Below are positions 40,564 through 57,131 of a DNA stretch of 64,000 nt, in pieces. Every line of letters begins with the position of its first letter. Positions within the stretch are counted from its first letter, which is position 1. This DNA is from Herbiconiux daphne (GTDB lineage: Bacteria; Actinomycetota; Actinomycetes; Actinomycetales; Microbacteriaceae): NCBI RefSeq assembly GCF_024979295.1, contig NZ_JANLCJ010000005.1, forward strand, positions 372,001-436,000, in the 5' to 3' direction. Under the pieces are notes generated by a model. That model was given only the letters and a program-made list of their open reading frames with translations. It did not search any database and was not told where the DNA came from. The translations under genes were made by a program, and so were the position numbers.

Positions 40564-40607
40564 GGTCTGGGTGGTTCGGAGCACGGATGCCCCGAACCAC
40601 CCAGACC
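40564..40607 (-). promoter_or_regulatory. Intercistronic stem-loop between binding-protein and permease genes
   Basis: GGTCTGGGTGGTTCGG (40564-40579) pairs perfectly with its complement at 40592-40607 around a 12-nt loop. There is no U-run after it in the transcription direction, so mRNA stabilisation or partial attenuation is more likely than full termination. This placement after a binding-protein gene is common in ABC operons. Confidence 0.8.
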
Positions 40608-40617
40608 GATGATGGTG

Positions 40618-41859: not shown

Positions 41860-42219
41860 GTCACTCCTTCGTGATCAGTCCTGGCGGGATCGGTCGTGGC
41901 TCAATGGCTCGTCACCGCGCTTGGGGACCAGTGTACAACCACACTGTCGGGTCAACTATCGTGTCTTGAGCCTCACTGCACAACCGTTGCACACTAACAA
42001 ATTGATAACTTGACCGAGAAACATCATCGATGTCCCGGGCAATTTAGGCAATAGTCGGCGTGAATCCGCTCGTCTGAGCGGGGCGGCGCGGCGACTCGCC
42101 GACGTCTGGACACATTGCAAAGCGTTCAGTAACGTTGAATTATGGTCGTGCCGCTCTGACGGCGCTGAACATCCGACGAAGCCGTCGGCATCGACCTGTC
42201 AACAAGGAGGCTGACATTG
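41860..42219. promoter_or_regulatory. Divergent control region of the ABC importer and SDR operon
   Basis: The 360 bp contain no supported gene and are less GC-rich than the surroundings. Leftward, a -35 TTGTGC and -10 GATAGT 17 bp apart can be drawn on the minus strand across about 41958-41986. TGTACAACC (41932-41940) and CTGCACAACCG (41977-41987) are related candidate operator sites; the second repeats an 11-mer found at 15935. Rightward, TTGCAA (42115-42120), a 17-bp spacer and AATTAT (42138-42143) form a plausible promoter for the SDR at 42220. Confidence 0.5.
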
Positions 42220-43023
42220 GTGGATCTTGGACTCACGGGCAAGAACGTGCTCGTCACCGGAAGCGCGACGGGCATCGGCAGGTCGGTGGTCGAGGCCTTC
42301 GCCCGGGAGGGAGCGCGGATCGTCGGTGTCGACATCCGTGACGATCTGATCACGGAATACGCCGCGGAGACTGGCTTCGGTGACAGCATCACGGCGGTGC
42401 ACGCCGACATGACGGTGGCCGACGACATCCGCAGCGCTCTCGAGCAGGTGACGGAGACGTTCGGCGGCGCGCCCGACATCCTCGTGAACAACGTCGGGGC
42501 CGGCCGGCTCGCATCGTTCGAAGAACTCACCGACGACGACTTCCACCGCACCTTCGAGCTGAACTTCTTCTCGATGGTGCGCGTGTGCCGGGCGCTCGTT
42601 CCCGCGATGTACGCCGCCGGCAAGGGAGCGGTCGTCAACGTCACCTCCGACCTGTCGCGTCAGGCCGAAGACGTCATCGTCGACTACGCCGCCTCGAAGG
42701 CCGCCGTCGCGAGCGTGTCGAAGTCGCTCGCCCGCGCCTACGCGCCGCGGGTGCGGGTGAACAACGTGGCGCCTGGCCCGATCTGGACCCCGTTCTGGAG
42801 CGACGCCGACAAGGGCTGGCTCAAGAACATCGAGGCCGCCTACGGCAAGAGCGGCCAGGATGCCGTCGACGCCCTCATCTCCGACCGCGGCATCCCGATG
42901 GGCCGCATGGGCACGCCCGAAGAGGTGGCCAACGCCGTGCTCTTCCTCAGCTCCGACGCCGCGGGGTTCACCACCGGGTCGACGCTCGGCGTCGACGGTG
43001 GATCCGTTCGCGCGACCCTCTAG
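42220..43023 (+). CDS. Short-chain dehydrogenase/reductase
   Basis: 267 residues, classical SDR: NVLVTGSATGIGRS, NNVGAGRLASF, active-site VDYAASKAA (Tyr and Lys), and STLGVDGGSV at the end. AAGGAGG (42204-42210) serves either TTG 42217 or GTG 42220; GTG is given. First gene of three rightward SDRs, and divergent from the sugar importer, so it probably acts on the imported compound. Confidence 0.87.
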   Translation: MDLGLTGKNVLVTGSATGIGRSVVEAFAREGARIVGVDIRDDLITEYAAETGFGDSITAVHADMTVADDIRSALEQVTETFGGAPDILVNNVGAGRLASFEELTDDDFHRTFELNFFSMVRVCRALVPAMYAAGKGAVVNVTSDLSRQAEDVIVDYAASKAAVASVSKSLARAYAPRVRVNNVAPGPIWTPFWSDADKGWLKNIEAAYGKSGQDAVDALISDRGIPMGRMGTPEEVANAVLFLSSDAAGFTTGSTLGVDGGSVRATL

Positions 43024-43035
43024 AAAGGAATTCAG

Positions 43036-43827
43036 ATGAAGACGACGAAGTCGAACCGCGCCGTGGTGATCACCGGCGCGAGCGGAGGCATGGGCCGCGA
43101 AGCCGCCGCCCGCTATCTCGAGCTGGGCGATCGCGTTGCACTGCTCGACGTGGATGCCGCGACGCTCGCGTCGGTCGCGGGGGAGCTGCGTGCGCAGTTC
43201 CCCTCGGCGGACGTGCTGGAGGTGACGTGCAACGTGGCCTCGCCGGAGTCGGTCGAGGCGGCGCGCGACACCGTGGCCGCGTGGTCGGGCGAGGTCGACG
43301 TGCTGGCCCTCATCGCCGGCGTGCTGCAGAAGGCGGGCCCGATCACCGAGCTCTCGATCGACGAGTGGGACCGCACGCAGAACATCAACCTGCGCGGGGT
43401 GTTCTTGATGGCCCGCACGTTCATCCCGCTCATGCCGAGCAACGACGGCGCCTCGATCGTCACCATCGGCAGCTGGTACGGCCGGTCGGGCCACGCGCTG
43501 TTCTCGGCCTACTGCGCCTCGAAGGCCGGCGTGATCAACCTCACCCAGACCATCGCCGCCGAGCTCGCCGAGAAGGGCATCCGCGCCAACGTGGTGTGTC
43601 CCGGCAACATCGACACCCAGATGCACCGCAAGGCGCTGCACGAGGAGGCGGAGTCGCGGGGCATCACGTTCGAGGAGATGAAGGCCATCGAGTGGGCGAA
43701 GATCCCGCTCGGCATCGCCGGGCCCGCCTCGACCATCGTCGACGCCGTCGAGTTCCTCACCTCGGCCCACGCCTCGTACATCACCGGGGCGTCGATCGAC
43801 GTCAACGGCGGGGTGCTCTTCCACTGA
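43036..43827 (+). CDS. Short-chain dehydrogenase/reductase (paralogue of 31862)
   Basis: 263 residues. Core motifs are VVITGASGGMGRE, NLRGVFLMARTFIPLMP, active-site SAYCASKAGV and C-terminal ITGASIDVNGG. The region MHRKALHEEAESRGITFEEM and IEWAKIPL matches the SDR at 31862, so the two probably act on the same or related substrate. ATG 43036 follows AAAGGA, 12 bp after the previous stop: second gene of the SDR operon. Confidence 0.88.
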   Translation: MKTTKSNRAVVITGASGGMGREAAARYLELGDRVALLDVDAATLASVAGELRAQFPSADVLEVTCNVASPESVEAARDTVAAWSGEVDVLALIAGVLQKAGPITELSIDEWDRTQNINLRGVFLMARTFIPLMPSNDGASIVTIGSWYGRSGHALFSAYCASKAGVINLTQTIAAELAEKGIRANVVCPGNIDTQMHRKALHEEAESRGITFEEMKAIEWAKIPLGIAGPASTIVDAVEFLTSAHASYITGASIDVNGGVLFH

Positions 43828-43897
43828 GCCGGCTGCGCCGAACCCCACGATCATCACCCCTTCTCGTTCACACCCCTCTCACCTCAAGGAAGAAGAC

Positions 43898-44677
43898 ATG
43901 ACTGCTCGTCTCACCGGAAAGACCATCGTCGTCACGGGCGGCGGCTCGGGCATCGGCGCCGGCATCGGCCGCGGCCTCGGCAACGAGGGCGCCAACGTGG
44001 TGCTCGCCGACCTCAACCTCGACGCCGCCCAGGCGGTCGCCGACGAGATCACGGCCTCCGGCGGCTCCGCGATCGCCGTGCAGGTCGACGTCGCCGACCG
44101 CGCCACCGTCGCCGCGGGCATCGCGAAGGCCGTCGAGGCCTACGGCCGCCTCGACGCCTACTTCAACAACGCCGGCATGAACGCGCCGATGAAGTTCCTC
44201 GAGATCACCGAGGACAACTTCTCGCTGATCATGCGCATCAACGCACTCGGCGTGCTCATCGGCACCCAGGAGGCGGCGAAGCAGTTCATCGCCCAGGGCG
44301 GCGGCGGAAAGGTGATCAACACGGCGTCGATCGCCGGCCGCACCGGCTTCGCGAGCTTCGCCCCCTACAGCGCCTCGAAGGCCGCGGTCATCTCGCTCAC
44401 GCAGGCGGCCGCCCGGTCGCTCGCCGAGCACGGCATCACCGTCAACGGGTTCGCCCCGGGCGTCGTGGCGACCCCGCTGTGGAAGAAGCTCGACGCCGAC
44501 CTCGAGAAGATGGGCGAGGGCGACTCGGGCTTCGACTCGATGGCCTCCGGCATCCTGCTCGGGCGCCCGGCGGAGCCGGAGGACATCGCGCCGACCGCCA
44601 TCTTCCTGGCCTCGAGCGACTCCGACTACATCACCGGCCAGATCATGGCCATCGAAGGCGGCATGATCCTGGTCTGA
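43898..44677 (+). CDS. Short-chain dehydrogenase/reductase
   Basis: 259 residues. TIVVTGGGSGIGAGIG (cofactor), FNNAGMNAPM, active-site APYSASKAAV and C-terminal ITGQIMAIEGGM. Most like diacetyl/acetoin- or polyol-type reductases. ATG 43898 follows AAGGAAG, 70 bp after the previous SDR. Third and last gene of this rightward SDR set. Confidence 0.88.
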   Translation: MTARLTGKTIVVTGGGSGIGAGIGRGLGNEGANVVLADLNLDAAQAVADEITASGGSAIAVQVDVADRATVAAGIAKAVEAYGRLDAYFNNAGMNAPMKFLEITEDNFSLIMRINALGVLIGTQEAAKQFIAQGGGGKVINTASIAGRTGFASFAPYSASKAAVISLTQAAARSLAEHGITVNGFAPGVVATPLWKKLDADLEKMGEGDSGFDSMASGILLGRPAEPEDIAPTAIFLASSDSDYITGQIMAIEGGMILV

Positions 44678-44731: not shown

Positions 44732-45535
44732 ATGAATTCTCCGGAGCTGCAGCAATCGCTGCTCGACCTCGTTCTGCCGCGGATGGCGGCCGACGAACGG
44801 GTCGTGGGGGTGGCGGTCGCAGGATCGCTCGCCTCCGGAACCGGCGACGAGTTCTCGGACATCGATCTCGTGGTGGTGATCGATGACGCCGCCTACCCCG
44901 ACGTCTCCGCCGATCGGCTGGAGGCCGTCGGGTCGTGGGCGCGGCTCGTCGCCGGCTTCACCGGAGAGCACGTCGGCGAGCCCCGGGTGGTGATCACCCT
45001 GGCCGGGCCGCCGCTCGTGCACGTCGACGTCAAGCTCGTCGACCTGGCGGGCTTCGCCGACCGCGTGGCCGACCCGTCGATCGTGCACGACCCGGCCGGC
45101 CTGCTCGCCCGGGCGATCGCCGAGCATCCGCTGGTCTCGCGCCCGTTCGACGTGCAGTGGGTCGAGGACCGGTTCTGGGTCTGGGTGCACTACGCCGCCA
45201 CCAAGCTCGGTCGCGGCGAGCTGTTCGAGGTGCTCGATCATCTCGCGTTCGTGCGCGGCGCCGTGCTCGGCCCGCTCGCGGCATTGCACGCGGGCGTCGA
45301 ACCGCGGGGAGTGCGGCAGCTCGAGCGGCTCGCGCCGGTCGAGGCGGCCGAGCTGCGGGCGACCGTCAGTGGCTACGACCGGGCGGATGCCGCTCGGGCG
45401 GTCGTGGCGAGCGTGGAGCTCTACCGGCGCTGGCGAGAGGGCCACGACGTCGAGAAGCGGGCGCTCGCCGAGGAGCTGGCGATGGACTATCTCGCAGGCA
45501 TCCTCGCGCGTGACGAGGTGGCCGGCCGGAGCTAG
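44732..45535 (+). CDS. Nucleotidyltransferase-domain protein (aminoglycoside-adenylyltransferase-like)
   Basis: 267 residues. The N-terminal nucleotidyltransferase fold carries AGSLASGTGDEFSDIDLVVV, with the GS motif and the D-x-D metal pair, and a third acidic site in VHVDVKLVDL. The C-terminal helical half resembles the substrate-binding domain of such enzymes. The target (small molecule, RNA or protein) is unknown. It ends with TAG overlapping the convergent LLM gene's stop by two bases. Confidence 0.8.
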   Translation: MNSPELQQSLLDLVLPRMAADERVVGVAVAGSLASGTGDEFSDIDLVVVIDDAAYPDVSADRLEAVGSWARLVAGFTGEHVGEPRVVITLAGPPLVHVDVKLVDLAGFADRVADPSIVHDPAGLLARAIAEHPLVSRPFDVQWVEDRFWVWVHYAATKLGRGELFEVLDHLAFVRGAVLGPLAALHAGVEPRGVRQLERLAPVEAAELRATVSGYDRADAARAVVASVELYRRWREGHDVEKRALAEELAMDYLAGILARDEVAGRS

Positions 45536-46509
45536 GCGGAGGGCTTCGCGAAGCGGCTGGGCTGCCAGGGCAGTCCGAGGCGGGAGGCGAAGGTCGGCGC
45601 CGGTGCGGACGGGGTGGTCGCGCCCGGGAGCGCCGCGGGCGAACGCTCCAGGTCGCCCAGCACGTGACTCAGGAGCCCGGCCGGAACGGTCACCCGCAGG
45701 AGCGTCGTGCCGGAGCCGGCGGTGCGCTCGGGGTCGAGCCGCCCCGTCTGCCGTGCGACCTCGTCGAGCAGGCCGGCGGCGGAACCGGCGTTCGTCCGCA
45801 CGATCCGGGCAGGGGGCACGCCGCTGGGCGACCGGTCGTCGCTCGTCGCCGGGGCCGAGAGCCGCGCGGCGCCCTGCTCGTCGGCGAGGAACACCGGCGG
45901 CCGGCCCTGCGGTGGCCGCGGCGTGATCAGCGGTCCCTTCACCCGGAAGTACCGCCCGTCGTGGTCGATGTGGTGGATCTTCGCGTTGTCGACGTAGCGC
46001 CCGGTCGCGATCTCGCGGATCTCGGCGCCGTCTTCCCACGAGTCCCAGAGGTCGCCGAGCACCACGGCGAACTCGACGGCCTGGGCGGCGCGGCCGGCGG
46101 CATCCAGATCGGTCGCGGCGGGGAAGAACCGGTCGGCCGTGGCCGATCGCGCCGGGTCGAGCAGGAGGCCGGCCCGGCCGGCGCTCGCGAAGTCGAGCGT
46201 GGCGATGGCCTTCGCCACATGGAACGGCTCGGCGTAGTGGCTCGACGCGCTCGCGAGCAACGCGACCCGGCTCGTGCGGCGGGCGACGAACGCGAGCGCG
46301 TCGACCGCGGAGAGGCGGGGGCCGCCGTCGGCCACGCGCGCCAGCGGATCGTCGAGCGCGACGAAGTCGAAGCCGAGCGCGTCGGCGCGGGTCGCGGCAT
46401 CGGCGAGCGCGGCGACCCCGGCGGCCCCGCCGTCGGCGCCGATCCCGTCGAGCCCGAGCCCGACGAGCACGCGCGCCGCGGTGCTCCCGGGCGCCTGCGA
46501 TGAGCTCAC
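45532..46509 (-). CDS. LLM-class flavin-dependent oxidoreductase (copy 1)
   Basis: 325 residues of the luciferase-like TIM barrel: ADALGFDFVALDDPLA, then SRVALLASASSHYAEPFHVAKAIATLDFAS and GLLLDPARS. YFRVKGPLITPRPPQGRPPVFL is typical of the NtaA/SnaA type, but the protein is shorter than usual at its end. GTG 46509 overlaps the adenosine deaminase stop as GTGA, so the two are coupled. A flavin reductase partner is not encoded nearby. Substrate unknown. Confidence 0.8.
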   Translation of the reverse strand: MSSSQAPGSTAARVLVGLGLDGIGADGGAAGVAALADAATRADALGFDFVALDDPLARVADGGPRLSAVDALAFVARRTSRVALLASASSHYAEPFHVAKAIATLDFASAGRAGLLLDPARSATADRFFPAATDLDAAGRAAQAVEFAVVLGDLWDSWEDGAEIREIATGRYVDNAKIHHIDHDGRYFRVKGPLITPRPPQGRPPVFLADEQGAARLSAPATSDDRSPSGVPPARIVRTNAGSAAGLLDEVARQTGRLDPERTAGSGTTLLRVTVPAGLLSHVLGDLERSPAALPGATTPSAPAPTFASRLGLPWQPSRFAKPSA

Positions 46510-47606
46510 GACGCCTCCCCGTACGCCGCGCCGACCGAGCCCGCGCCGGCCGGGCCCGCGCCGCCCGGGCCCGCGCTGCCCGAGCCCTGGCCTCCCGCCC
46601 AATGGGCCTCGCCGATCGCGCGCAGCCGCTCCGCCATCTCGGGCCCCGACACCTGCCCCAGCACGCCGGCCTCGAACAGACTCCGCGGGTCGGCTCCCAC
46701 CGAGCGGGCGAAGGCGTGCTCGACGCCGAGATCGGTGCCGAACATCGCCGGATCGTCGGTGTTGACCGTCACCGGCAGGCGCAGCTCGAGCATGGCCCTC
46801 AGCGGATGCTCGTCGAGGCTCCTCACCACCCGGGTGCGCAGGTTCGAGGTGGGGCACACGTCGAGCACGATGCCGCGATCGCGCAGCTCGGCCACCAGTG
46901 CCGGGTCGTCGATCGCCCGGAAGCCGTGGCGGATGCGCGCCGCCCCCAGCAGCTCGACGGCCTCCCGCACCGACGACGGCCCGGCATCCTCACCCGCGTG
47001 CGGCACCGCGGCGAGCCCGCCATCGCGCGCCCGCTCGAACAGCTCGGCGAACGCGCTGGTCGGCGCCGCCCGTTCGCGCCCGCCGAGCCCGATGCCCACG
47101 ATGCCGCGATCGCGGAACCGGATCGACTCCTCCACCAGCTCCCGGCTCAGCGCGGGCGGCCGGTTGCGGTCGATGTCGGGAGTGAGTCGCACGATAACCC
47201 CGGTCTGCTCGAAGGCGTCCTGGATGCCGTCGGTGAACCCCTCGAACAGCTCGCGCCCCTCGATGCCCCTGGCGTAGTACTGGCCGGGCGAGAAGATGCC
47301 CTCGAGGTAGACGGCCCCGAACCCCGCCGCCTCACGGGCGTAGTCGACCACCACCTGGCGGAAGTCCGAGGCGGTGAACAGCACGTCGGTCGTGACGTTC
47401 CACACGTCGATGAAGTGGTCGAAGTCACGGAAGTCGTAGAACCGCTCCAGCTCGGCGAGCGTGTCGACCGGCAGCGCCACACCGTTGCGTCGCGCCAGCG
47501 TGAACAGGGTCGCCGGCCGCACGGCCCCCTCGAGGTGCACGTGCAGCTCGATCTTCGGGTAGGCGCCGGATGCCGCGGCGGCGCCTGCGCCGGGTGCGTC
47601 AGTCAT
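46506..47606 (-). CDS. Adenosine deaminase-family protein
   Basis: 366 residues. All zinc and catalytic motifs are present: HVHLEG (His 22 and 24), VPHAGED, RIRHGF, DVCPTSNL and NTDDPAMFGTDL, so it should hydrolyse an aminopurine or similar ring amine. The last 30 residues are a Gly/Pro/Ala tail. The family also contains aminodeoxyfutalosine and adenine deaminases. It overlaps the LLM genes on both sides (8 bp upstream, GTGA downstream), an unusual partnership for a simple purine-salvage enzyme. Confidence 0.88.
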   Translation of the reverse strand: MTDAPGAGAAAASGAYPKIELHVHLEGAVRPATLFTLARRNGVALPVDTLAELERFYDFRDFDHFIDVWNVTTDVLFTASDFRQVVVDYAREAAGFGAVYLEGIFSPGQYYARGIEGRELFEGFTDGIQDAFEQTGVIVRLTPDIDRNRPPALSRELVEESIRFRDRGIVGIGLGGRERAAPTSAFAELFERARDGGLAAVPHAGEDAGPSSVREAVELLGAARIRHGFRAIDDPALVAELRDRGIVLDVCPTSNLRTRVVRSLDEHPLRAMLELRLPVTVNTDDPAMFGTDLGVEHAFARSVGADPRSLFEAGVLGQVSGPEMAERLRAIGEAHWAGGQGSGSAGPGGAGPAGAGSVGAAYGEAS

Positions 47607-48864
47607 CGCCGACCACCGCGGCCCCCTCGCGCAGATGGTGCTGCAGGGTGTCGCCCGAGTAGCCCGCGCGGTACACCCCGAGCTCCTGCAGCTCGGGCAC
47701 CACCCGGTCGACGAACTCGTCGAGACCGCTCGGCACCACCGAGGGGTTCACCACGAAGCCGTCGGCCGCGCCGGACTGCACCCAGGTGTTGATCTGATCG
47801 GCCACCTGCCGGGGGGTGCCGACGAAGTCGCGCCGGGCCCGCACGGTGCTGAGCAGCTGGCGGGTGGTGAGCTGCTGCTCTTCGGCGATGCGCCGCCAGC
47901 CGGCCACCAGCACCCGCGCATCCCGCTCGCCGCCGACCTGGCCGCGCGCGAACGCGTCGGCGTGATGCCAGTCGGGGTCGAAGTCGGGCAGCGGCCCGTC
48001 GACGTCGAAGTCGCTGAGGTCGTGCCCCCACACTTCTTCGAGCAGAAAGGCGGCGACACGGGGAGTCATCTCGAGTGCGCGCCATTCCCGCAACCGCTCC
48101 TCGGCCTCGGCGGGGGTGTCGCCCAGCACGAACGCCGTGCTCGGCATGATCACCACGTCGTCGTCGCGGCCGAGCGCCCGCCGGCGCGAACGGATGTCGC
48201 GGCAGAACGCCCGCGACTCCTCGATGCTGCGGCGCCCGGCGAACACCACTTCGGCGTGCGCGGCCGCGAGATCGCGGCCCTCGGCCGAGCCGCCGGCCTG
48301 CACGATCGACGGCTGCGGGCCGGCCACGGGCGCGAAGGCGGCGTCGTCGTCGTCGCCCGACCAGAGCCGCTGCACCTCGCGGATGAAGGCGTCGGCCTGA
48401 CTGTAGCGGTCGGCGTGCGCCACCATGCGGTCGGGCCGGAAGTTCGACGACGCCCCGATGCCGAAGGTCGTGTGCGAGGTCACGACGTTCCAGCCCGCCC
48501 GGCCGCCCGAGAGGTGGTGAACGGCCGCGAGCCGCCGGGCGACGTCGTAGGGGTCGGAGAACGTGGTGCCGATGGTGGCGACCAGCCCGATGCTCTCGGT
48601 CTCGGCGGCCAGCGCCGAGAGCACGGTGAGCGAGTCGGGCTTGTCGAGGATGGCATGGTCGATCACCCGCCCGCGATGCTCCTGCAGCCAGTTGGCCTCG
48701 GCGAGGAAGACGAAGTCGAAGGCGCCGCGCTCGGCGCTGCGGGCGAAGTGCCGGAAGGCCTCGAACTCGATCTGGCTGCCGGCATCCGGATGGCTCCACA
48801 GCGTGTGATGGTGGTCGTTCGGGTAGAAGGCGCCCAGGTGCACCTGCCGAAGACCGTCGCTCAT
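47599..48864 (-). CDS. LLM-class FMN monooxygenase, NtaA/SnaA/DszA type (copy 2)
   Basis: 421 residues. Typical features of the DszA-like two-component monooxygenases are FDFVFLAEANWL, GWNVVTSHTTFGIGASSNFRP, PSIVQAGGSAEGRDLAAAHAE and C-terminal DGFVVNPSVVPSGLDEFVDRVVPELQ. They use reduced FMN from a separate reductase to oxidise heterocycles, sulfur compounds or chelators. ATG 48864. First gene of an operon with adenosine deaminase and a second LLM protein, pointing to a nitrogen-heterocycle route. Confidence 0.87.
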   Translation of the reverse strand: MSDGLRQVHLGAFYPNDHHHTLWSHPDAGSQIEFEAFRHFARSAERGAFDFVFLAEANWLQEHRGRVIDHAILDKPDSLTVLSALAAETESIGLVATIGTTFSDPYDVARRLAAVHHLSGGRAGWNVVTSHTTFGIGASSNFRPDRMVAHADRYSQADAFIREVQRLWSGDDDDAAFAPVAGPQPSIVQAGGSAEGRDLAAAHAEVVFAGRRSIEESRAFCRDIRSRRRALGRDDDVVIMPSTAFVLGDTPAEAEERLREWRALEMTPRVAAFLLEEVWGHDLSDFDVDGPLPDFDPDWHHADAFARGQVGGERDARVLVAGWRRIAEEQQLTTRQLLSTVRARRDFVGTPRQVADQINTWVQSGAADGFVVNPSVVPSGLDEFVDRVVPELQELGVYRAGYSGDTLQHHLREGAAVVGDD

Positions 48865-48978
48865 CACACCTAATCTAGGGGAGCGCGACGGCGCACGAGG
48901 GCAGATGTCGCTGTGTGACCACGCGCCGGGATGCGCGGCCCGGGTTTGGCAGGATGGGCACGTGCTGCGAGACCTGCC

Positions 48979-50121
48979 ATGACCGCAATCCCCCTCTCCG
49001 TGCTCGACCTGGTGCTGGTGCCCGAGGGCGGCACGCCCGCGGCGGCGCTCGCCGAGTCGGTCGAGCTGGCCCGCGCGGCCGACCGGGCCGGGTACGCCCG
49101 GTTCTGGCTCGCCGAGCACCACCTCTACCCTGGGGGCGCCGGAGCGGCGTCGTACCTGCTCGCCCCGACGATCGCGGCGGCGACCGGCAGCATCCGGGTC
49201 GGCACGGCGGTGATCGTGATCGACAACCACTCGCCGCTGCAGGTGGCCGAGATCGCGGGCACGGCGGCGGCGCTCACGGGCCGCGGCTTCGATCTCGGCA
49301 TCGGCCGAGGGGGCCCGGGCGCCGAGGTGCGCGAGCGCGGGCGGGCGTCGAATGCGCGCCTCGAGGGCGGCGACCTGCGGCCGGGGCCCGTCGGCCCGAG
49401 CCACACGGTCGACGGCGTCGTCGTGCCGGCGCGCGTGGTGCATCCGTTCGCCGACGTGCGCGCCGGGCTCAACGACCGGCTGCTCTCGCGAACCCCTGGC
49501 GACCCCGCGGACTTCGGCGAGCAGGTCGACGACGTGCTCGGGTTCTTGCGCGGCGACTACCGCGCGCCCGAGGGCGTGCCGGTCGTCGCGACCCCCGCCG
49601 AGGGTGCCGACGTCGAGGTGTGGATCCACGGCAGCTCGGCCGGCGTCAGCGCCGAGGTGGCCGGCCGCAACGGCCTGCGGTTCGGGGCCAACTACCACTC
49701 GGTGCCGCAGACCGTCTTCGAGACCGTCGCGGCCTACCGCGAGGCCTTCGTGCCGTCGGCCGAGCTCGACCGCCCGCACCTCGCCGTGTCGGCCGACGTG
49801 CTCGTCGCCGACACCGACGACGAAGCCGAACGGCTCGCGGCACCCTTTGCGCTATGGCTGCACACGGTGCGCACGCGGTATGCCGCCGACCCGTTCCCGA
49901 GCCCGCAGACCTTCGCACGCTTCCCGTGGACCGCCGATCACACGGCGATCGTGGCCGACCGGCTCGAGAGCCGCATCGTCGGCTCACCCGCGACGGTCGT
50001 CAGGCGCCTGCGGGCCCTCGCCGCCGCGACCGGCGCCGACGAGCTCGTGGTCTCGACGCAGGCGCACGCCCTGGCCGACCGCATCCGCTCCTACGAGCTC
50101 CTGGCCGACGCCTGGCGCTGA
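48979..50121 (+). CDS. LLM-class flavin oxidoreductase, luciferase-like (copy 3)
   Basis: 380 residues, of the group with FWLAEHHLYPGGAGAASYLL and TGSIRVGTAVIVIDNHSPLQVAE, the bacterial-luciferase-like monooxygenases. The GIGRGGPGAEVRERGR segment is the flavin-phosphate region. It is divergent from LLM copy 2 (114 bp gap). The function is likely oxidation of a small molecule; this subgroup is not tightly tied to one substrate. Its 3' end is duplicated (see repeat at 50113). Confidence 0.83.
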   Translation: MTAIPLSVLDLVLVPEGGTPAAALAESVELARAADRAGYARFWLAEHHLYPGGAGAASYLLAPTIAAATGSIRVGTAVIVIDNHSPLQVAEIAGTAAALTGRGFDLGIGRGGPGAEVRERGRASNARLEGGDLRPGPVGPSHTVDGVVVPARVVHPFADVRAGLNDRLLSRTPGDPADFGEQVDDVLGFLRGDYRAPEGVPVVATPAEGADVEVWIHGSSAGVSAEVAGRNGLRFGANYHSVPQTVFETVAAYREAFVPSAELDRPHLAVSADVLVADTDDEAERLAAPFALWLHTVRTRYAADPFPSPQTFARFPWTADHTAIVADRLESRIVGSPATVVRRLRALAAATGADELVVSTQAHALADRIRSYELLADAWR

Positions 50122-50144
50122 CCCGAGCTGGCGCTGACCCGAGC
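50113..50144. repeat. 16-bp tandem duplication spanning a stop codon
   Basis: TGGCGCTGACCCGAGC occurs at 50113-50128 and 50129-50144. The first copy includes the TGA of the LLM gene at 50121. It appears to be a slippage duplication. Confidence 0.85.
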
Positions 50145-50172
50145 CGCCGTCCCCGGCACCCCCCCCGGTGAA

Positions 50173-51009
50173 TCAGCGCCCGCCGCCCACCGCGATGCCG
50201 GCCTTGATGTAGCGCTGCGCCGCGAACACCACGATGAGCGCCGGCACGCTCGCCACGAGCGACGCGGCCATGACGGCCGCCCAGCTGGTGACCTGCGAGC
50301 TGGTGAGGGCATAGACGAACACGGTCATCGGATACATCTGGTCCTGGGTCACGAGCGTGAGCCCGAAGAGCAGGTCGCCCCATGCGAACAGGAACGTGAA
50401 GACGCCCGCCGTGATGATGGCGTTCCGCGACAGCGGCACCACGATGCGCAGCAGACTTCCGATCGGGCCCAGCCCGTCGAGCTTGCCCGCCTCGACGATG
50501 TCGTGGTCGAGACGCAGCATGAAGGCGCGCAGCACGATCACCGCGAACGGCACACCGGCCGTGGCATCCGCGAGGATCAGCCCGACGTAGGTGTTGAGGA
50601 TGCCCCACGAGTTGAACATGGCGTAGAACGAGTTCGCGAGCACGATGCTCGGGATCATCTGGGCGAGCAGCAGCAGCACGAGGGCGACGCCGACCGTGCG
50701 CGAGCGCACCCGGCTGAGGGCGTAGGCGGCGGGGACCGCGATCACCAGGGTGAGCGCCACCGATCCGAAGGCCACGATCAGGCTCACCCGCAGGGCGTCG
50801 AGGCCGTCTTCGAACACCGTGCTGTAGCCGTCGAGCGACGGCGCGGGAGGAACCCATTCGATGTTCGCCGACGTGACTCCCGGCTGGAGCGACGCCGAGA
50901 GCATCCAGAAGATCGGAAAGAGGTACACCACGAGGATGGCGACACTCGCGAGGGTGAGCAGCCAGCCGACGCGACGGCGACGGCGGCGGGAGACGGGCAC
51001 GGCGGTCAT
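50173..51009 (-). CDS. Carbohydrate ABC importer permease, MalG type
   Basis: 278 residues with six membrane helices. The EAA loop appears as EAGKLDGLGPIGSLLRIVVPLS, which contacts the ATPase. A basic N-terminus (SRRRRRRVG) precedes the first helix. ATG 51009 overlaps the other permease's stop. No ATPase gene is in the operon, so a shared MsiK-type ATPase elsewhere is likely, as is common in actinobacteria. Confidence 0.9.
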   Translation of the reverse strand: MTAVPVSRRRRRRVGWLLTLASVAILVVYLFPIFWMLSASLQPGVTSANIEWVPPAPSLDGYSTVFEDGLDALRVSLIVAFGSVALTLVIAVPAAYALSRVRSRTVGVALVLLLLAQMIPSIVLANSFYAMFNSWGILNTYVGLILADATAGVPFAVIVLRAFMLRLDHDIVEAGKLDGLGPIGSLLRIVVPLSRNAIITAGVFTFLFAWGDLLFGLTLVTQDQMYPMTVFVYALTSSQVTSWAAVMAASLVASVPALIVVFAAQRYIKAGIAVGGGR

Positions 51010-51953
51010 CGTTCGCTGCGCTCCCGCCGGCCCGACAGCCAGGTGTAGACCGCGGCGAAGGCGAGGCTGATCACGAGCAGCACGATGCCGTAGGCCCCGG
51101 CGTTGCCGAACTCGAACAACTGGAACGCCGAGCGGTAGGAGAGCAGGCCGAGGGTGACCGTGTTGTCGGCCGGGCCGCCCTGGGTGAGCACGAGCACGAG
51201 GTCGACGATCAGCAGGGTGTAGATGACGCTCATCACGACGAGCACCGAGATCACGGGCCAGATCGCCGGAACCACGATGTGCAGCAGCCGCTTCCACGCC
51301 CCGGCGCCGTCGAGTTGCGCGGCCTCGAGCTGTTCGTCGGGCACTTGTTTGAGGGCGGCGCCGAGGATCGTCACCCAGTAGGGCAGCCCGCTCCAGATCG
51401 CCACCGCCACCACGGCCCAGAGCGCGGTCGTCGGGTCGGCGAGCCAGGCGTTGGTGGGCAGGCCGAGGGTGTGCAGGATGTCGTTGACCGCTCCGTCGCC
51501 CGAGAGCAGCCACTTCCAGATGGTGCCGACCACCACGGCCGGTAGCAACCACGGGATGAGCAGCAGCATCGGCAGCCAGCGGCTGCCGGGGAAGCGGCGG
51601 TTGAAGTGCAGGGCCAGCGCGAAGCCGACGACGAGCTCCACCACCACCGAGACGACGGTGATCACGACGGTGTTGAGAACGGCCTTGCCGAGCAGGGGCG
51701 AGGCGAAGATGTCGGCGAAGTTGTCGAGCCCCACGAAGGGGGCCTTGCCGGTGAAGAAGGTGCCGGTGGTGAAGTCGGTGGTGCTCATGTAGACGCCGTA
51801 GCCGAGCGGGAACACGAAGCACAGGGCGAAGAAGACGATCGCCGGAACGAGGAATGCCAGCTGTTCGGCCCGGCTGCGGCCGGCCAGCGACAGGCCTCGC
51901 CGGCCGGACCGCGAGGGTTCCGGCCGGCGAGGCCCGGCGACTGCCCGGGTCAC
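51006..51953 (-). CDS. Carbohydrate ABC importer permease, MalF type
   Basis: 315 residues with six helices after about 30 cytoplasmic residues. The EAA loop is EAAQLDGAGAWKRLLHIVVPAI. VFPLGYGVYMSTTDFTTG matches first-helix regions of MalF/UgpA proteins. GTG 51953 overlaps the binding-protein stop as GTGA, indicating coupled translation. It forms the channel with the MalG-type subunit at 50173. Confidence 0.9.
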   Translation of the reverse strand: MTRAVAGPRRPEPSRSGRRGLSLAGRSRAEQLAFLVPAIVFFALCFVFPLGYGVYMSTTDFTTGTFFTGKAPFVGLDNFADIFASPLLGKAVLNTVVITVVSVVVELVVGFALALHFNRRFPGSRWLPMLLLIPWLLPAVVVGTIWKWLLSGDGAVNDILHTLGLPTNAWLADPTTALWAVVAVAIWSGLPYWVTILGAALKQVPDEQLEAAQLDGAGAWKRLLHIVVPAIWPVISVLVVMSVIYTLLIVDLVLVLTQGGPADNTVTLGLLSYRSAFQLFEFGNAGAYGIVLLVISLAFAAVYTWLSGRRERSER

Positions 51954-53197
51954 TGGCTCTTGACTGCCTCTGCCAGCGCGTCCTTCGCGCTGACACCGTT
52001 CACGGTGGCGTTCTGGATGGCGGTGACGTACTGCTGCTGCAGGGTGTTCCAGTCGGTGCCGAGGGTGGCGGTGTTGACGGCGGTGGGCACGGCGTCGACG
52101 AACGGCGCGGCTCCCGGAACCTGCTCGACGAAGCCTTCCTGAGCGCTCGTCAGGGCGGGGATGTAGCCGCCCTGCACGGCCGTCTCGAGCTGGTTCTCCT
52201 CCGACGCACGGCACTCGACCAGAGCGGCCGCGGCCTTCGCCTTGTTCTCGTCGCTCTGAGCGGCGACGCCGTAGGCGTAACCGAGCAGGCCCACCTTGGG
52301 CTCCTCGCCGGCCGTCAGCGTCGGGAAGGGCGCGATGCCGTAGTCGAAGTCGGTGGGCGTGACGAGCTGCCACGGGCCGGTCACCGTGATCGCGGCCTTG
52401 CCGCCGGTGAACTGGTCGGTGGCGTCCCAGCCCCAGTTGACGAACTCCTTCGAGAGGCTCCCGTCGTCGACCAGCGTCTTGTAGAGGTCGACGGCCGCGA
52501 CCGCTCCGTCGCTGGTGGGGTCGGCGGGGTCGCCGCCGGCGCTCAGCAGGAACGGCAGGAAGTAGACCGGCGCGGCGCCGTCGACGGCGTTGCCGGCGAA
52601 CGAGACGCCGTAGCGGCCGTCTTGCGTGAGGGTGCGGGCGTCGGCCTCGAGCTCCTCGAAGGTCGCGGGCGGCTCGGTGATGCCGGCGGCCTCGAAGGCG
52701 GCCTTGTCGTAGAACAGCGCGTAGTCCTCCACCTGCACCGGCAGGCCGTAGAGGGTGTCCTCGTACTGCCCGAGCGCGGCGACGCTGTCTTCGAGCCCGT
52801 CGGTCGTGACGCCGAGCGGCCCCAGGTCGGACAGCACGCCCTGCGAGGCCAGCAGCGGAATCTGCACGTCCGTCGACAGCAGCGCGATGTCGGGCAGCGA
52901 CTTCGAGCTCGCGGCCTGCAGCAGCTTCGAGGTGTAGTCACCCGTGATGGTCTGGTTGTCGACTTCGATGTTCAGCTGGGTGGCGCAGTCGGCGAAGTAC
53001 TTCTCCTGCAGACTCTGGTAGGGGTCGTAGTCGATGTTGTTCCAGACGGTCAGCTTCACGCCGCCGAAGTCGGTCGACGAGCCGCTGTCGGTCGATGACG
53101 CGGTGCCCGACGAGGAGCAGCCCGCGAGGGTGAGAGCGCCCGCCACGGCGACCGCGGTGAGCGTGGTCGGCAGGGCGCGCTTCGGAATCAGTGCCAT
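51950..53197 (-). CDS. ABC importer extracellular solute-binding lipoprotein (MalE/UgpB-like)
   Basis: 415 residues. The lipobox LTLAGC gives the lipidated cysteine at 27, followed by a Ser/Thr linker. The mature part has the family-1 pattern: KLTVWNNIDYDPYQSLQEKYF, LPDIALLSTDVQIPLLASQG, YGLPVQVEDYALFYDKAAFEAAG and KAAITVTGPWQL. ATG 53197 follows AAAGGA. First gene of the importer operon, located between LLM and amidohydrolase genes, so it may import a nucleoside or heterocycle rather than a sugar. Confidence 0.9.
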   Translation of the reverse strand: MALIPKRALPTTLTAVAVAGALTLAGCSSSGTASSTDSGSSTDFGGVKLTVWNNIDYDPYQSLQEKYFADCATQLNIEVDNQTITGDYTSKLLQAASSKSLPDIALLSTDVQIPLLASQGVLSDLGPLGVTTDGLEDSVAALGQYEDTLYGLPVQVEDYALFYDKAAFEAAGITEPPATFEELEADARTLTQDGRYGVSFAGNAVDGAAPVYFLPFLLSAGGDPADPTSDGAVAAVDLYKTLVDDGSLSKEFVNWGWDATDQFTGGKAAITVTGPWQLVTPTDFDYGIAPFPTLTAGEEPKVGLLGYAYGVAAQSDENKAKAAAALVECRASEENQLETAVQGGYIPALTSAQEGFVEQVPGAAPFVDAVPTAVNTATLGTDWNTLQQQYVTAIQNATVNGVSAKDALAEAVKSQ

Positions 53198-53344
53198 GTG
53201 ATCGAGGTCCTTTGTTCGTGCTGGGACACTCAGTCTTATCAACGCTGGGCCGGGCCGCCACCGAATCGTAATGCGGGGGAAACACAGCGAAAGAAACCGT
53301 AACAAACCGGCCTCCGCACGGCGCCCGTGAGCCCTAGGAAGGGC

Positions 53345-54715
53345 TCAGCCGCGACGCACGGCGGCGGCGGGGTGATCGGCCGGCAGCAGGTCGGCCCGGT
53401 CGTCGCGCAACCGCGAACGCAGGGTTCCGGATGCCGGGAAGCCGCCGAACAGGCCGCGCTCGCGCAGCTCCGGCACGAGCAGTTCGGTGAACTCGTCGAG
53501 CGAGCCGGGCGAGATGAACTGGTGGATGAGGAAGCCGTCGACCCCGGACTCGTCGACGAAGCGCTCCACGTTGTCGGCGACCTCCGTGGGCGTTCCGATG
53601 AAGCGGTCGTCGGCGAAGGCGGTCACCTTGCTGAACTGCCGCCGCACGTCGCCGGCGAGCAGCGGTGGTGTGTCGGGTTTGGTGCCCGCGATCTGCGTGG
53701 CGTTGGTCTGCTGCTTGGCGAGCGGCTCGTCGTCGCGGTAGGCCGAGAAGTCGATGCCGCTCCACCCCGCGTAGGCCGCGAGCTGCGCCTCGGAGGAGTA
53801 GTACGACTGGAAGTCGTCGATCTTCTGCTGCACCGCGATGCGGGTGGGTGCCACGATCTGGTTGAGGCCCACGACCGCGCGGATCTGCGACGGGTCGCGA
53901 CCCAGTTCCTCGGCCCGGCGGCGGATGTCGGCGAGCCCCTCTCTGATCTTCACCGGATCGGATTCGCCGACGAAGATGAGCTCGGCGTGCGTGGCCGCGA
54001 ACTCGCGCCCGCGCGGCGACCAGCCGGCCTGGATGAGCACCGGCGTGCGCTGCGGCGACGGCACGCTGAGGTGCGGGCCCGCGACCTGGAACAGGCTGCC
54101 GCGGTAGTCGATCTGATGCACCTTGGCGGGGTCGGCGAAGCGGCGCTCGGCCTTGCTGCCGATGAAGGCGTCCTGCTCCCAGCTGCCCTCCCAGAGCCGG
54201 TAGACCACGTCGAGGAACTCGTCGCCGCGGTCGTAGCGGGTGTCGTGCGCTATGACGTCGAGGCCGAAGTTCGCGGCCGCGCCGGGCAGGTAGGAGGTGA
54301 CGATGTTCCAGGCGATGCGCCCGGCGGTGAGGTGGTCGAGCGTGCTGAACCGGCGAGCGTGGGCGAACGGATGCTCGTAGGTGGTCGACACCGTCGCGCC
54401 GAAGGCGATGTGATCGGTGACGGCGGCGAGGGCGGGGATGTGCAGCAGCGGGTCGTGGGCCGGAAGCTCGACGCCCCACTCGAGCGCGGTGTCGGCCGAG
54501 CCCCGGTAGGTGTCGTAGAGCCCGAGCACGTCGCCGAAGAAGAACAGGTCGAGGCCGGCCTCTTCGGCCCGCCTGCCGAGATCGAGCCAGTACCGCAGGC
54601 CGAGAGCGGACAGGCGCTCGTCGGCCGGATGGGTCCAGAGGCTGACCGCGCCGGAGCCGTTGCCGATGCAGGCTTGTTCGTAGAGGCCCCAGAGCAGTGG
54701 GCTTCGGTCAGACAC
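53345..54715 (-). CDS. LLM-class flavin monooxygenase (copy 4)
   Basis: 456 residues. DLFFFGDVLGLYDTYRG, AWNIVTSYLPGAAANFG, LIQAGWSPRGREFAATHAE and DGFLIHQFISPGSLDEFTELLVPELRERG place it in the NtaA/SnaA/DszA monooxygenase group with copy 2. GTG 54715 follows GAGGAGG and overlaps the amidohydrolase gene by 8 bp. The pairing with an amidohydrolase suggests ring opening followed by hydrolysis, or the reverse; substrate unknown. No flavin reductase is nearby. Confidence 0.88.
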   Translation of the reverse strand: MSDRSPLLWGLYEQACIGNGSGAVSLWTHPADERLSALGLRYWLDLGRRAEEAGLDLFFFGDVLGLYDTYRGSADTALEWGVELPAHDPLLHIPALAAVTDHIAFGATVSTTYEHPFAHARRFSTLDHLTAGRIAWNIVTSYLPGAAANFGLDVIAHDTRYDRGDEFLDVVYRLWEGSWEQDAFIGSKAERRFADPAKVHQIDYRGSLFQVAGPHLSVPSPQRTPVLIQAGWSPRGREFAATHAELIFVGESDPVKIREGLADIRRRAEELGRDPSQIRAVVGLNQIVAPTRIAVQQKIDDFQSYYSSEAQLAAYAGWSGIDFSAYRDDEPLAKQQTNATQIAGTKPDTPPLLAGDVRRQFSKVTAFADDRFIGTPTEVADNVERFVDESGVDGFLIHQFISPGSLDEFTELLVPELRERGLFGGFPASGTLRSRLRDDRADLLPADHPAAAVRRG

Positions 54716-56030
54716 GGATGCCTCCTCGTTCGTCGGCCGCCGTGGCGAGCCAGAGCGGCTCGCCACGGGTGAAGGTCGCAGTCGTCGCGGTCGTTCCCGT
54801 CTCGACGAGTTCGTGCAGGGCGTCGGACGGGTCGGCGCTCGCGGTGTCGAACACGGCGAAATCGGCCCTCGTGCCGGGGCGCAGGGCGCCCGTCGCGTCC
54901 GGCCCGTCGGCGAGTCCCAGCGCGCGGGCGCCGCCCAGGGTCGCCGCGTCGAGCAAGCGGGCGGCGAGGTCGGGGGCGCGGTAGCCCTGGGCGCGGGCGA
55001 GGGCGTGGAGGGCCGCGACATCCGCCAGCACCGAGAGCGACGGAGCCGACGAGAGCGAATCGGTGCCGACGGCGAGGGCGTTGCCCTCGGTGAGATAGGC
55101 GGCGACGGGAGGCGGCTCGAGCCCGATCACGGCGTTCGAGCGCGGGCACAGGGCCACCGACACACCGCGCGCCCGCAGCAGCGCGCGGTCGTCGGCGTCG
55201 ACGTAGATGCCGTGCGCCAGATGAGTCGTGGGCGCGAGGGCGCCGAGCGAGTCGAGGTAGGCGATGCTGCCGAGTCCCACTCCGCCGCCGGCGAGCAGCT
55301 GCAGGTCGGAATGGCCGTAGCGCCGCCACTGGTCGGCCAGGGTGCCCGTGCCGGTGCGGGTGAACTCGTCTTCGGAGGCGGCCTCGGCGGCGTGGATGTG
55401 CTGGCGCAGACCGAGCTCGGCGACCAGGGCCACGAGGTCGCGGAGCACGTGGGTGTCGAGCGAATAGACGGCGTGGGGCGAGAGCCCGGCGGCCGGGGGA
55501 GCGGGGATGCGCGCGAGTTGTTCGAGCACCGTGCGCCGGCCCTCGTCGCGCCACCGGGCGGCCTTCCAGTTGAAGACCTCCCAGAACGCCACTCCGTGCA
55601 GCCCGGCATCGTGCAGGGCGCTCGCGGCGGCCGGGTCGGTGACGACGTCGGCCACCGCCGTCGTGCCCGACCGGATGGCCTGCTGAGCGCCGTCGGCGGC
55701 GGAGGCGGCCCAGTCGTGCGGCGCGACGTAGGCGGCCTGGAACGATCGCGACCAGTTCTCGAAGCCGCTGTAACGGCCCCGGCCGACCTCGGCCATGTCG
55801 GTGTACTGCAGGTGCGTGTGGGCGTTCACGAGGCCCGGCGTGATCGTTCCGCCCCACTCGACCCGGCGGGTTCCGTCGACGTCGCGGAAGGTCGCGCTGA
55901 GCTCGTCGTGGCCGCCGACGGCGACCACCCGTGCGCCTCGCACGGCGATCGCCCCGTCGGCGATGGGCGGCGCCCCGACGGGCAGCAGCACCGGCGAGCG
56001 GTGGAGGGTGAGAGGGGCGTTGGCGTTCAC
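54708..56030 (-). CDS. Amidohydrolase (ATZ/TRZ/MtaD-type deaminase)
   Basis: 440 residues. Metal motifs are GLVNAHTHLQYTDM (HxH), RQHIHAAEA, TTHLAHGIYV and ALAVGTDSLSSAP (the catalytic Asp). The form resembles methylthioadenosine/adenosylhomocysteine and chlorohydrolase-type deaminases. The start is uncertain: GTG 56030 begins the conserved N-terminus. First gene of an operon with LLM copy 4, and divergent from the nucleoside hydrolase. Confidence 0.85.
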   Translation of the reverse strand: MNANAPLTLHRSPVLLPVGAPPIADGAIAVRGARVVAVGGHDELSATFRDVDGTRRVEWGGTITPGLVNAHTHLQYTDMAEVGRGRYSGFENWSRSFQAAYVAPHDWAASAADGAQQAIRSGTTAVADVVTDPAAASALHDAGLHGVAFWEVFNWKAARWRDEGRRTVLEQLARIPAPPAAGLSPHAVYSLDTHVLRDLVALVAELGLRQHIHAAEAASEDEFTRTGTGTLADQWRRYGHSDLQLLAGGGVGLGSIAYLDSLGALAPTTHLAHGIYVDADDRALLRARGVSVALCPRSNAVIGLEPPPVAAYLTEGNALAVGTDSLSSAPSLSVLADVAALHALARAQGYRAPDLAARLLDAATLGGARALGLADGPDATGALRPGTRADFAVFDTASADPSDALHELVETGTTATTATFTRGEPLWLATAADERGGIRV

Positions 56031-56132
56031 TTCCGCCGAGCATAGGTCGTGCGGCCGACCGGGCGCCAACCCCGGTCGTAACAGCCCGTAGTGAACGGCT
56101 CGGGTGCGGTCGCGGCCCATTAGTCTCGACTC

Positions 56133-57131
56133 GTGCCGACCACCGACTCCGCCCCTGACACCCTGACCGACTCCGTGCGCCACGTCGTGGTCGACACCGA
56201 CACCGGCATCGACGACGCGCTGGCGCTGCTCTATCTGGCCGGCCGCGACGACGTCGAGATCTCGGCCATCACGAGCGTCTACGGCAACACGCCGGTGGAG
56301 TCATCCGTCACCAACATCGCCCGGGTGCTGAAGGTGGCCGGCCTCGACGACGTGCTCGTGGCCAAGGGCGCCGCCGGGCCGCTCTCGGGCGAGCCCCTGA
56401 TCGCCGCCGCCGTGCACGGCCGGGACGGCCTCGGCGACCTGTGGTCAGACCCGATCGCGCCGAAGAACCTCTCGCCGCTGTCGGCGGCCGAGCTGCTCGT
56501 CGAACTCGGCCGGTCGCGGCCCGGCTACTACGACCTGCTGCCGATCGGCCCGCTGACGAACCTGGGGCTGGCCCTCGAGATCGAGCCCGACCTGCTGACG
56601 CTCTACCGTTCGGTCGTGATCATGGGCGGATCGGGGCCGTTCCCGCCGCTCGGCGAGGTGCTCATGGTCGACGCCAACATCAACAACGACGCCGAGGCGG
56701 CCGCCCGGGTGTTCGCCGCGCCCCGCAACGAGCTCGTGATGGTGGGCGTGAACGTGACGGCCGGCACGATCGTCGACGAACAGGCCATGCAGGCCCTGCA
56801 CCGCGCGGGCACCGAGTGGGGCACTTTCTCGGCCCAGGTGCTCGAGGCGTACGTCGACTTCTACCAGACCGCGTGGGGCCGCCGGGTGTCGTCGGCCCAC
56901 GACGGACTCGCCGCCGCGCTGCTCGTGCAGCCCGAGTGGATCACGAAGTCGGTGCGCGGGCCGGTCAACATCACGACCGACGGTTACGCGTCGCGCGCCC
57001 ACCTGGTGCGCACGGCGGAGGGGCTGCCGGTGAGCTGGCCGACCACGCCCGCGCCCGACACGCTCGTGGTGCTCGAGGTCGACCGGCCGGCGTTCCTGGC
57101 CGACTTCATCCGGGTGCTCTCCGGGCGCTGA
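56133..57131 (+). CDS. Nucleoside hydrolase (inosine-uridine type)
   Basis: 332 residues. The calcium-binding signature VVDTDTGIDDALAL is near residues 18-31. Further family motifs are LPIGPLTNLGLALE, IMGGSG, NINNDAEAAARVF and SSAHDGLAAAL, which holds the last ligand Asp. It cleaves the N-glycosidic bond of ribonucleosides to base and ribose. The start is GTG 56133. It is divergent from the amidohydrolase operon across 100 bp. Together with deaminases and LLM enzymes nearby it suggests breakdown of a purine-like nucleoside. Confidence 0.93.
   Translation: MPTTDSAPDTLTDSVRHVVVDTDTGIDDALALLYLAGRDDVEISAITSVYGNTPVESSVTNIARVLKVAGLDDVLVAKGAAGPLSGEPLIAAAVHGRDGLGDLWSDPIAPKNLSPLSAAELLVELGRSRPGYYDLLPIGPLTNLGLALEIEPDLLTLYRSVVIMGGSGPFPPLGEVLMVDANINNDAEAAARVFAAPRNELVMVGVNVTAGTIVDEQAMQALHRAGTEWGTFSAQVLEAYVDFYQTAWGRRVSSAHDGLAAALLVQPEWITKSVRGPVNITTDGYASRAHLVRTAEGLPVSWPTTPAPDTLVVLEVDRPAFLADFIRVLSGR

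Follow-up and report, generated by a model that had tools for sequence, protein, structure and literature searches.

Which compound would require four genes for luciferase-like flavin monooxygenases (LLM) and two deaminase-type genes side by side? This question is raised by a gene block of Herbiconiux daphne (Microbacteriaceae; 5.3-Mb assembly), situated in the 64,000-nucleotide stretch analysed here (contig NZ_JANLCJ010000005.1, positions 372,001 to 436,000; in the following, the window). To our knowledge, few LLM flavin monooxygenases have known substrates, and the superfamily is numerous: PF00296 yields 39 rows in this genome alone, 38 of them above the cut-off (a single gene may yield two rows). 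It is proposed here, tentatively and somewhat short of an even chance, that the block serves to scavenge sulfur, by means of two-component flavin monooxygenases, from an adenosyl thioether, namely S-adenosylhomocysteine (SAH), 5'-methylthioadenosine (MTA) or a relative.

The predominant part of the block is organized into two operons on the minus strand. In operon 1, LLM2 (47599–48864), encoding an NtaA/DmoA-family monooxygenase of 421 residues, is followed by an adenosine-deaminase family gene (ADA; 46506–47606) and by LLM1 (45532–46509), encoding a shorter LLM protein of 325 residues. LLM2 overlaps ADA by 8 bases and ADA overlaps LLM1 by 4. LLM3 (48979–50121, plus strand), an LLM oxidoreductase of the MsnO8 family, diverges from LLM2 across a promoter region (48865–48978) containing the motif TGTGAC. 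Operon 2 starts with an amidohydrolase gene (AH; 54708–56030), which overlaps LLM4 (53345–54715), a second NtaA/DmoA-family monooxygenase gene, by 8 bases. It ends with an importer composed of a malE-type solute-binding protein (51950–53197), a malF-type permease (51006–51953) and a malG-type permease (50173–51009), with overlaps of 4 bases between malE and malF and between malF and malG. The gene starts are the likely ones, picked by reading frame and overlap.

An earlier sequence-only reading of this DNA had named these genes and overlapping operons, and coordinates and profile matches bear it out. Its count of four LLM enzymes holds for the genes; the enzymes are most likely three, because LLM2 has lost a loop segment that is kept by LLM1, as in the NtfO1–NtfO2 pair. 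In the crystallized heterodimer (PMC8027225), the side loop tail is missing from NtfO2 and the lid from NtfO1, neither subunit of the homologous NgnO is active alone, and O1 subunits are less conserved than O2 subunits. In the window, LLM2 scores 338.9 bits against TIGR03860 (cut-off 279.7), and LLM1 stays below this cut-off with 131 bits, which stem from its N-terminal half alone. The best match of LLM2 in the PDB is YtnJ (1yw1/6ask, 6ask being titled CmoJ) with 217.4 bits, and chain B of the NtfO1–NtfO2 structure (7e36_B) follows just behind with 215.6 bits. A segment of about 32 alignment columns after a conserved LW motif is kept in LLM4, in eight LLM1 paralogs and in LLM1, where both aligned sequences retain it; it is absent from all four operon 1 LLM2 sequences that were aligned and shortened in LLM2 paralogs. 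LLM1 and LLM2 show the gene pattern of the NtfO1–NtfO2 type, two coupled LLM genes of which one keeps the loop that the other lost. The LLM1 segment may correspond to the side loop tail of the NtfO proteins; part of this segment is retained in 7e36_B. Moreover, LLM2 paralogs adjoin an LLM1 paralog at eight of nine loci, the ninth (L147) being a locus in which no genes were called.

The two putative subunits also differ in their rate of change. Among orthologs, identity to the window proteins is 42–62% for LLM1 and 67–86% for LLM2. Modeled alone, LLM1 reaches a mean predicted local distance difference test score (pLDDT) of 73.8 and a predicted template-modeling score of 0.77, with most of the loop segment below a pLDDT of 50; four of five LLM1 models have a mean pLDDT of 68–74 and the fifth of 51.5. 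In a Foldseek search with the LLM1 model, 7e36_A is the third match. By analogy, LLM1 and LLM2 probably form a heterodimer, in which LLM2 would be the catalytic and LLM1 the complementing subunit, and if this holds, the retention of the degenerate-looking LLM1 is explained. The likeness to NtfO1–NtfO2 and StmO1–StmO2 (PDB 7e36; PMC8027225) comprises coupled genes, complementary segment loss and the combination of an NtaA-like subunit of 421 residues with a shorter, faster-evolving one. However, those pairs belong to biosynthetic polyketide hydroxylation, and in the block the subunit genes are separated by ADA.

The sequence-only reading had held that a lack of conservation would speak against the gene set; the set proved to be conserved in relatives. 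The ADA-based sample comprised 62 loci, eight from four genera of the Microbacteriaceae and 54 from elsewhere, several of them short; in addition, 199 Microbacteriaceae genomes were surveyed (genomes and loci are given G and L numbers). The whole block recurs in Herbiconiux moechotypicola (G093, L067) and in a Herbiconiux metagenome-assembled genome (MAG; L066) with 73–90% protein identity, lower values being found for LLM1 (52–59%) and for a neighbouring nucleotidyltransferase (NTase)-like gene (55–58%). The core, LLM3 and LLM2-ADA-LLM1, is also found in four Mycetocola loci, in Subtercola vilae and in a Glaciihabitans MAG. LLM2 adjoins ADA or lies near it at all eight Microbacteriaceae loci, with permease and ATPase genes between the two in the four Mycetocola loci. 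LLM3 and LLM1 are each visible at seven of the eight, some of all these genes by tblastn; locus L071 begins at an importer gene and L119 stops within ADA. At the 54 loci outside the family, no neighbour best-matching a window LLM was detected (BLAST, E 1e-10). With LLM genes this numerous and three A_deaminase genes in the source genome, the recurrence of the pair goes beyond coincidence.

Within the family survey, close ADA (at least 67% identity; partial in G176) and close LLM2 (at least 70%) share the identical six genomes, and the next LLM2 matches have 48% identity or less. A more distant ADA (39%) in G072, without an LLM on its 8-kb contig, was not counted as an ortholog. Two further Herbiconiux genomes (G011, G155) have no LLM2, ADA, AH or LLM4 at the thresholds used. 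AH is present in four of the six genomes with LLM2 and ADA, compared with 29 of the 193 others, and no genomes except the three Herbiconiux were seen to combine LLM4, MalEFG and AH. Since only four genera are involved, no probability is attached to this co-occurrence. The conserved deaminase partner in the six genomes with LLM2 narrows the substrate to a deaminable, adenosine-like compound.

ADA scores 277.7 bits against TIGR01430 (cut-off 216.55) and stays below the cut-offs of other NCBIfam ADA models. The residues H22, H24, H203, E206, H227 and D284, which presumably have metal-binding and catalytic roles, are invariant in five aligned sequences. The best solved matches, 3ou8 and 3rys, which we take to be adenine deaminases, are both deposited as adenosine deaminases. 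Eighteen positions are invariant in the eight operon 1 sequences and rare in 49 others (57 of the 63 sequences from the window and the 62 loci were kept; those dropped had no ADA called or at most 270 residues). As any monophyletic group yields some such positions, they were not used as proof. In total, the source genome encodes three A_deaminase genes, two of them besides ADA, and seven tested relatives have 3 to 8 matches each.

The second deaminase-type gene, AH, belongs to PF01979 and has DR_0824 as its best solved match (95.9 bits). Against NCBIfam models of SAH/MTA-type deaminases it reaches about 100 bits at best, with cut-offs from 320 upwards. At a threshold of E 1e-60 or better, the AH family is present in 33 of the 199 genomes, 31 of them outside Herbiconiux, and 24 of these 31 loci were examined (L053–L065, L152–L162). 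Among loci with few or no genes called (L063, L064, L184, L186, L187, L188, L192), those of AH and the importer were read by tblastn. At 23 of the 24 loci, the distance from AH to an adenosylhomocysteinase-like gene is 5 kb or less; the exception, L058, is on a contig that breaks off shortly after AH. Moreover, 20 of the 24 loci encode an amino-acid-type binding protein and 18 a DUF985 cupin, and three of the four loci without the amino-acid-type importer have genes of an energy-coupling factor (ECF) transporter. In two genomes of one genus (G085, G148), the adenosylhomocysteinase-like and amidohydrolase domains form a single open reading frame of 1026 and 900 residues, respectively (L062:8358–11060, plus strand; L157:8708–11788, minus strand), a candidate bifunctional enzyme of SAH recycling. 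For 13 of the 31 genomes with AH outside Herbiconiux, the top AdoHcyase matches are only weak ones (E 1e-6 to 1e-19), and no canonical AhcY was thus detected. These neighbourhoods provide good indirect evidence for a role of the AH family in SAH-type metabolism, but none for the deamination of SAH by it.

The AH proteins of Herbiconiux are 47–56% identical to family members outside the genus and join the ECF-linked members in an unrooted tree with a support of 100/100. The first tree left out L063, L064 and L162, whose gene was missed or shortened; they were added to a tree rooted with a very distant outgroup, in which the rooting is unsure and the outgroup and L162 sit on very long branches. 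In methanogens, SAH is deaminated and S-inosylhomocysteine hydrolase acts next. This route and the MTA deaminase of P. aeruginosa resemble the relatives of AH in having a deaminase-type amidohydrolase beside an adenosylhomocysteinase-like protein; they differ in lacking flavin oxygenation, and the deaminase role of AH is a prediction. Deamination as a first step has precedent, because P. aeruginosa deaminates MTA before it is split (PMC6302742).

The monooxygenase partner of AH, LLM4, scores 460.8 bits against TIGR03860 (cut-off 279.7). Its four best solved matches are LadA (411.9 bits), DmoA (359.9 bits), RcaE (297.7 bits) and HcbA1 (281 bits), from which it is set apart by its coupling with AH and the MalEFG genes. 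A role as riboflavin lyase of the RcaE type is not supported, since RcaE is outscored by LadA and DmoA and no partner gene was recognized by eye. The nearest relative of LLM4 outside Herbiconiux among the 199 genomes (G160, 54%) lies downstream of genes for cystathionine beta-synthase and cystathionine gamma-synthase, both scoring above cut-off. LLM3 scores 273.6 bits against TIGR03558 (cut-off 166.95) and matches the structure 4us5 (143 bits), presumably MsnO8; CmoO is presumably a member of the same family.

A sulfur context is found around the block in relatives. In H. moechotypicola, MetQ-, MetN- and MetI-type genes lie directly upstream of AH, and genes of a PatB-type C-S lyase and an O-acetylhomoserine (OAH)-sulfhydrylase type are situated about 2.4 to 5 kb beyond a nucleoside hydrolase gene (NH) that adjoins the block; these sulfur-type genes score below their NCBIfam cut-offs. 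A peptide-type importer is also seen by eye beyond the NH end. In the Herbiconiux MAG, the contig continues past the block with an ABC importer, LLM genes, a C-S lyase of the PatB type (284.7 bits; cut-off 340), a flavin reductase (PF01613) and MetNIQ, with the PatB-type, reductase and MetNIQ genes lying within about 13 kb of NH. In the source genome, MetNIQ (89% identity to MetQ of G093) is encoded on another contig together with LLM and OAH-sulfhydrylase-type genes. In Subtercola, a gene resembling 3-mercaptopyruvate sulfurtransferase, below its cut-off, is found about 5.5 kb past LLM3. No flavin reductase was recognized in the block, and a source of reduced flavin is assumed.

Importer genes of the amino-acid-type ATP-binding cassette (ABC) class surround LLM2 in the four Mycetocola operon 1 loci. 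The ATPase of M. saprophilus, the only one tested, has its top score with TcyN (269.8 bits, under the cut-off of 406), and the Mycetocola binding protein is 35–44% identical to the binding proteins linked to AH. The Cmo operon of B. subtilis also encodes the TcyJKLMN importer (PMC10863075, PMC6323116). There, an S-alkylcysteine is acetylated, its sulfur is oxidized by CmoO, and the C-S bond of the resulting S-alkylcysteine sulfoxide, the substrate of CmoJ, is cleaved by that enzyme (PMC10863075). The block shares with this pathway a CmoJ homologue (LLM2, 217 bits), a second LLM gene and, in Mycetocola operon 1, the amino-acid-type ABC importer. However, it includes a gene of the adenosine-deaminase family, and its CmoJ-like enzyme appears to be divided between two subunits. 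Inspection by eye of the block and of its counterparts in the relatives showed neither an acetyltransferase SnaA nor a deacetylase SndA. In Gordonia, growth on organosulfur compounds raises the expression of nitrilotriacetate-monooxygenase genes and of a methionine ABC transporter gene above the level on sulfate, and two nitrilotriacetate-monooxygenase genes show no expression on sulfate (PMC7661421).

Operon 1, with its CmoJ-like and ADA genes, and operon 2, which combines an AH of an adenosylhomocysteinase-associated family with a LadA/DmoA-like monooxygenase, together suggest a thioether bearing an adenosyl group as the simplest common denominator. Such a compound could be imported by MalEFG in the window, by the amino-acid-type ABC importer in Mycetocola and, in H. 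moechotypicola, possibly by MetNIQ. ADA and AH would deaminate its adenine part, converting the adenosyl into an inosyl group. The CmoJ-related LLM2–LLM1 heterodimer could then break the C-S bond with reduced flavin mononucleotide (FMNH2), a step that LLM3 might prepare by oxidizing the sulfur; LLM4 may serve as the C-S-cleaving monooxygenase of operon 2. The thiol or sulfenic acid set free would enter cysteine and methionine synthesis through C-S lyases and sulfhydrylase-type enzymes whose genes lie elsewhere. Heterodimer, substrate, order of steps and the assignment of both operons to one pathway are parts of this model that we infer. A more specific version of it is distinctly unlikely: in this O2-dependent salvage, ADA and AH would be dedicated to deaminating adenosyl thioethers (SAH, MTA, S-adenosyl conjugates), and the split CmoJ-like enzyme would cleave the inosyl C-S bond, returning sulfur to cysteine and methionine without nucleosidase, phosphorylase or LuxS. 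If the proposal as a whole holds, the pool of S-adenosylmethionine (SAM) by-products would be linked to oxygenolytic sulfur scavenging, a link of which no description was found among the literature matches listed, with most subscription journals outside the coverage.

Several observations weigh against this proposal, in which the assignment of the substrate derives from gene families and neighbourhoods. AH scores under the cut-off of all 25 NCBIfam models matched. Genomes with AH are not peculiar in lacking a canonical AhcY, since an AdoHcyase match is weak or missing in about 36 of the 166 others as well. In L053, the adenosylhomocysteinase-like protein scores above one of the NCBIfam cut-offs for adenosylhomocysteinase and therefore may act on SAH without prior deamination. 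The Herbiconiux AH has left the adenosylhomocysteinase neighbourhood, and a changed substrate is possible because these copies form a separate branch, now next to LLM4. LLM4 in turn has LadA, an alkane enzyme, as its nearest solved match, and no sulfur context was recognized around its relatives in G125, G170 and G139. ADA belongs to a broad actinobacterial clade, which has no LLM link outside the Microbacteriaceae. In the window itself, no sulfur gene was recognized by eye beside the block. The binding protein is not diagnostic, as equally close relatives (43–45%) occur at loci without AH; such relatives are present in 73 of the 199 genomes, and 18 of 20 further loci fetched for them have no adenosylhomocysteinase match, so that importer similarity was set aside as proof of a common substrate. 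No SAM/SAH-type riboswitch was found at the gathering threshold in the window and 14 related loci, the only RNA matches being tRNA, a fluoride riboswitch and abiF RNA, and the riboswitch link was dropped. Genes resembling MTA phosphorylase are found in two of the six genomes with LLM2 and ADA versus 41 of the 193 others; their absence does not correlate with the block and was discarded as support.

The alternatives overlap with the proposal and with each other, and the likelihoods attached to them are not meant to total one. Ordinary organosulfur scavenging of the Cmo or DmoA type, directed at S-alkylcysteines or thioethers, with deaminases for general purine or nitrogen salvage that share the promoters, would also fit the sulfur context and the LLM relatives, and the clade of ADA with no LLM link elsewhere agrees with it. 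It appears somewhat unlikely in view of the overlaps of 8 and 4 bases that couple ADA to an LLM gene on either side, of the persistence of this association in four genera, and of the identical set of six genomes for close ADA and LLM2; moreover, the source genome already has its two other A_deaminase genes, and LLM4 is likewise coupled to a deaminase-type gene, AH. That operons 1 and 2 are unrelated and became neighbours by chance in Herbiconiux is unlikely. Operon 1 does occur without an adjoining operon 2 in Mycetocola, Subtercola and Glaciihabitans, but the two are adjacent in all three Herbiconiux that have them, two other genomes of the genus lack LLM2, ADA, AH and LLM4 at the thresholds used, and in each operon an LLM gene of the NtaA family is coupled with one of a deaminase type.

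The pathway of the sequence-only reading, in which a modified nucleoside is imported, its base released by NH and deaminated, and a purine or other N-heterocycle opened by flavin-dependent oxidation as a nitrogen source, is improbable. The gene families are present, and RutA, which opens uracil, is itself an LLM enzyme, so that the block resembles the Rut pathway in placing an LLM monooxygenase in a nucleobase context. However, the RutA model TIGR03612 has a cut-off of 498.3 bits, of which LLM2 reaches 38.8 and LLM4 44.3, and no other rut gene was recognized by eye in the gene list of the window; RutA-type ring opening is therefore not supported, and neither was a gene for processing ring fragments recognized by eye in the block. 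Nitrilotriacetate monooxygenases do cleave a C-N bond (PMC7661421). NH (56133–57131, plus strand; PF01156, 214.9 bits) is probably a bystander outside the conserved system, because its orthologs (75–85%) occur in nine of the 199 genomes without the LLM2/ADA pair, including Herbiconiux G011, and because it lies beyond AH in the window and beyond LLM1 in the two other Herbiconiux. Base release by NH thus finds no backing, and the sulfur-type genes near the block in relatives speak against the nitrogen-source pathway as a whole. What remains plausible of it is a nucleoside-like substrate, because in each operon a flavin-monooxygenase gene shows translational coupling with a gene of a different deaminase-type family. 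Quite improbable, finally, is the catabolism or detoxification of a flavin or of a natural product or xenobiotic with an aminopurine-like ring, with the LLM pair as a streptoseomycin-type hydroxylase. LLM1 and LLM2 resemble the biosynthetic NtfO1–NtfO2 pair (PMC8027225), with 7e36_B almost level with CmoJ (215.6 versus 217.4 bits); LLM4 matches riboflavin lyase and LLM3 matches 4us5. Yet the scores of LLM4 with LadA and DmoA exceed that with riboflavin lyase, the block contains no gene recognized by eye as a riboflavin kinase, a ribokinase or a biosynthetic gene, and sulfur-type genes lie near it in two relatives.

Two further links were followed. Both deaminases resemble families that presumably include aminodeoxyfutalosine deaminases; a futalosine link was dropped, because only 7 of the 28 genomes tested have MqnE above its cut-off and the six Microbacteriaceae in this set are not among these. 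TGTGAC, possibly a regulator site, has six sites in the window on both strands and occurs in five of six operon 1 promoters examined (the window and four of five others), in one of four metQ promoters and in two of three AH-module promoters. Over all 24 AH modules it has 14 sites in 15.9 kb of non-coding DNA, and 16 modules have no site there; as a shared regulatory motif it is not convincing over the AH modules and is recorded as an observation only.

In two genomes of about 1.3–1.4 Mb (G092, locus L184; G154, locus L192), a second AdoHcyase-family gene is separated by about 2 kb from the gene of an amino-acid binding protein that is a relative of the AH-linked one. A second sulfur-type island of the source genome (contig C57; L194:1–18000) contains MetNIQ, several LLM genes and an OAH-sulfhydrylase-type gene, together with a CMD/AhpD-like protein and a peptide-type importer recognized by eye. 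Within the window, positions 38014–44677 hold genes of a ribose-type ABC importer and, after them, three that resemble short-chain dehydrogenases/reductases (SDR), as judged by eye, apparently a separate sugar or polyol set adjoining the block. Three similar genes at 7636–8682, 32649–33731 and 33844–34881 look ketopantoate-reductase-like by eye.

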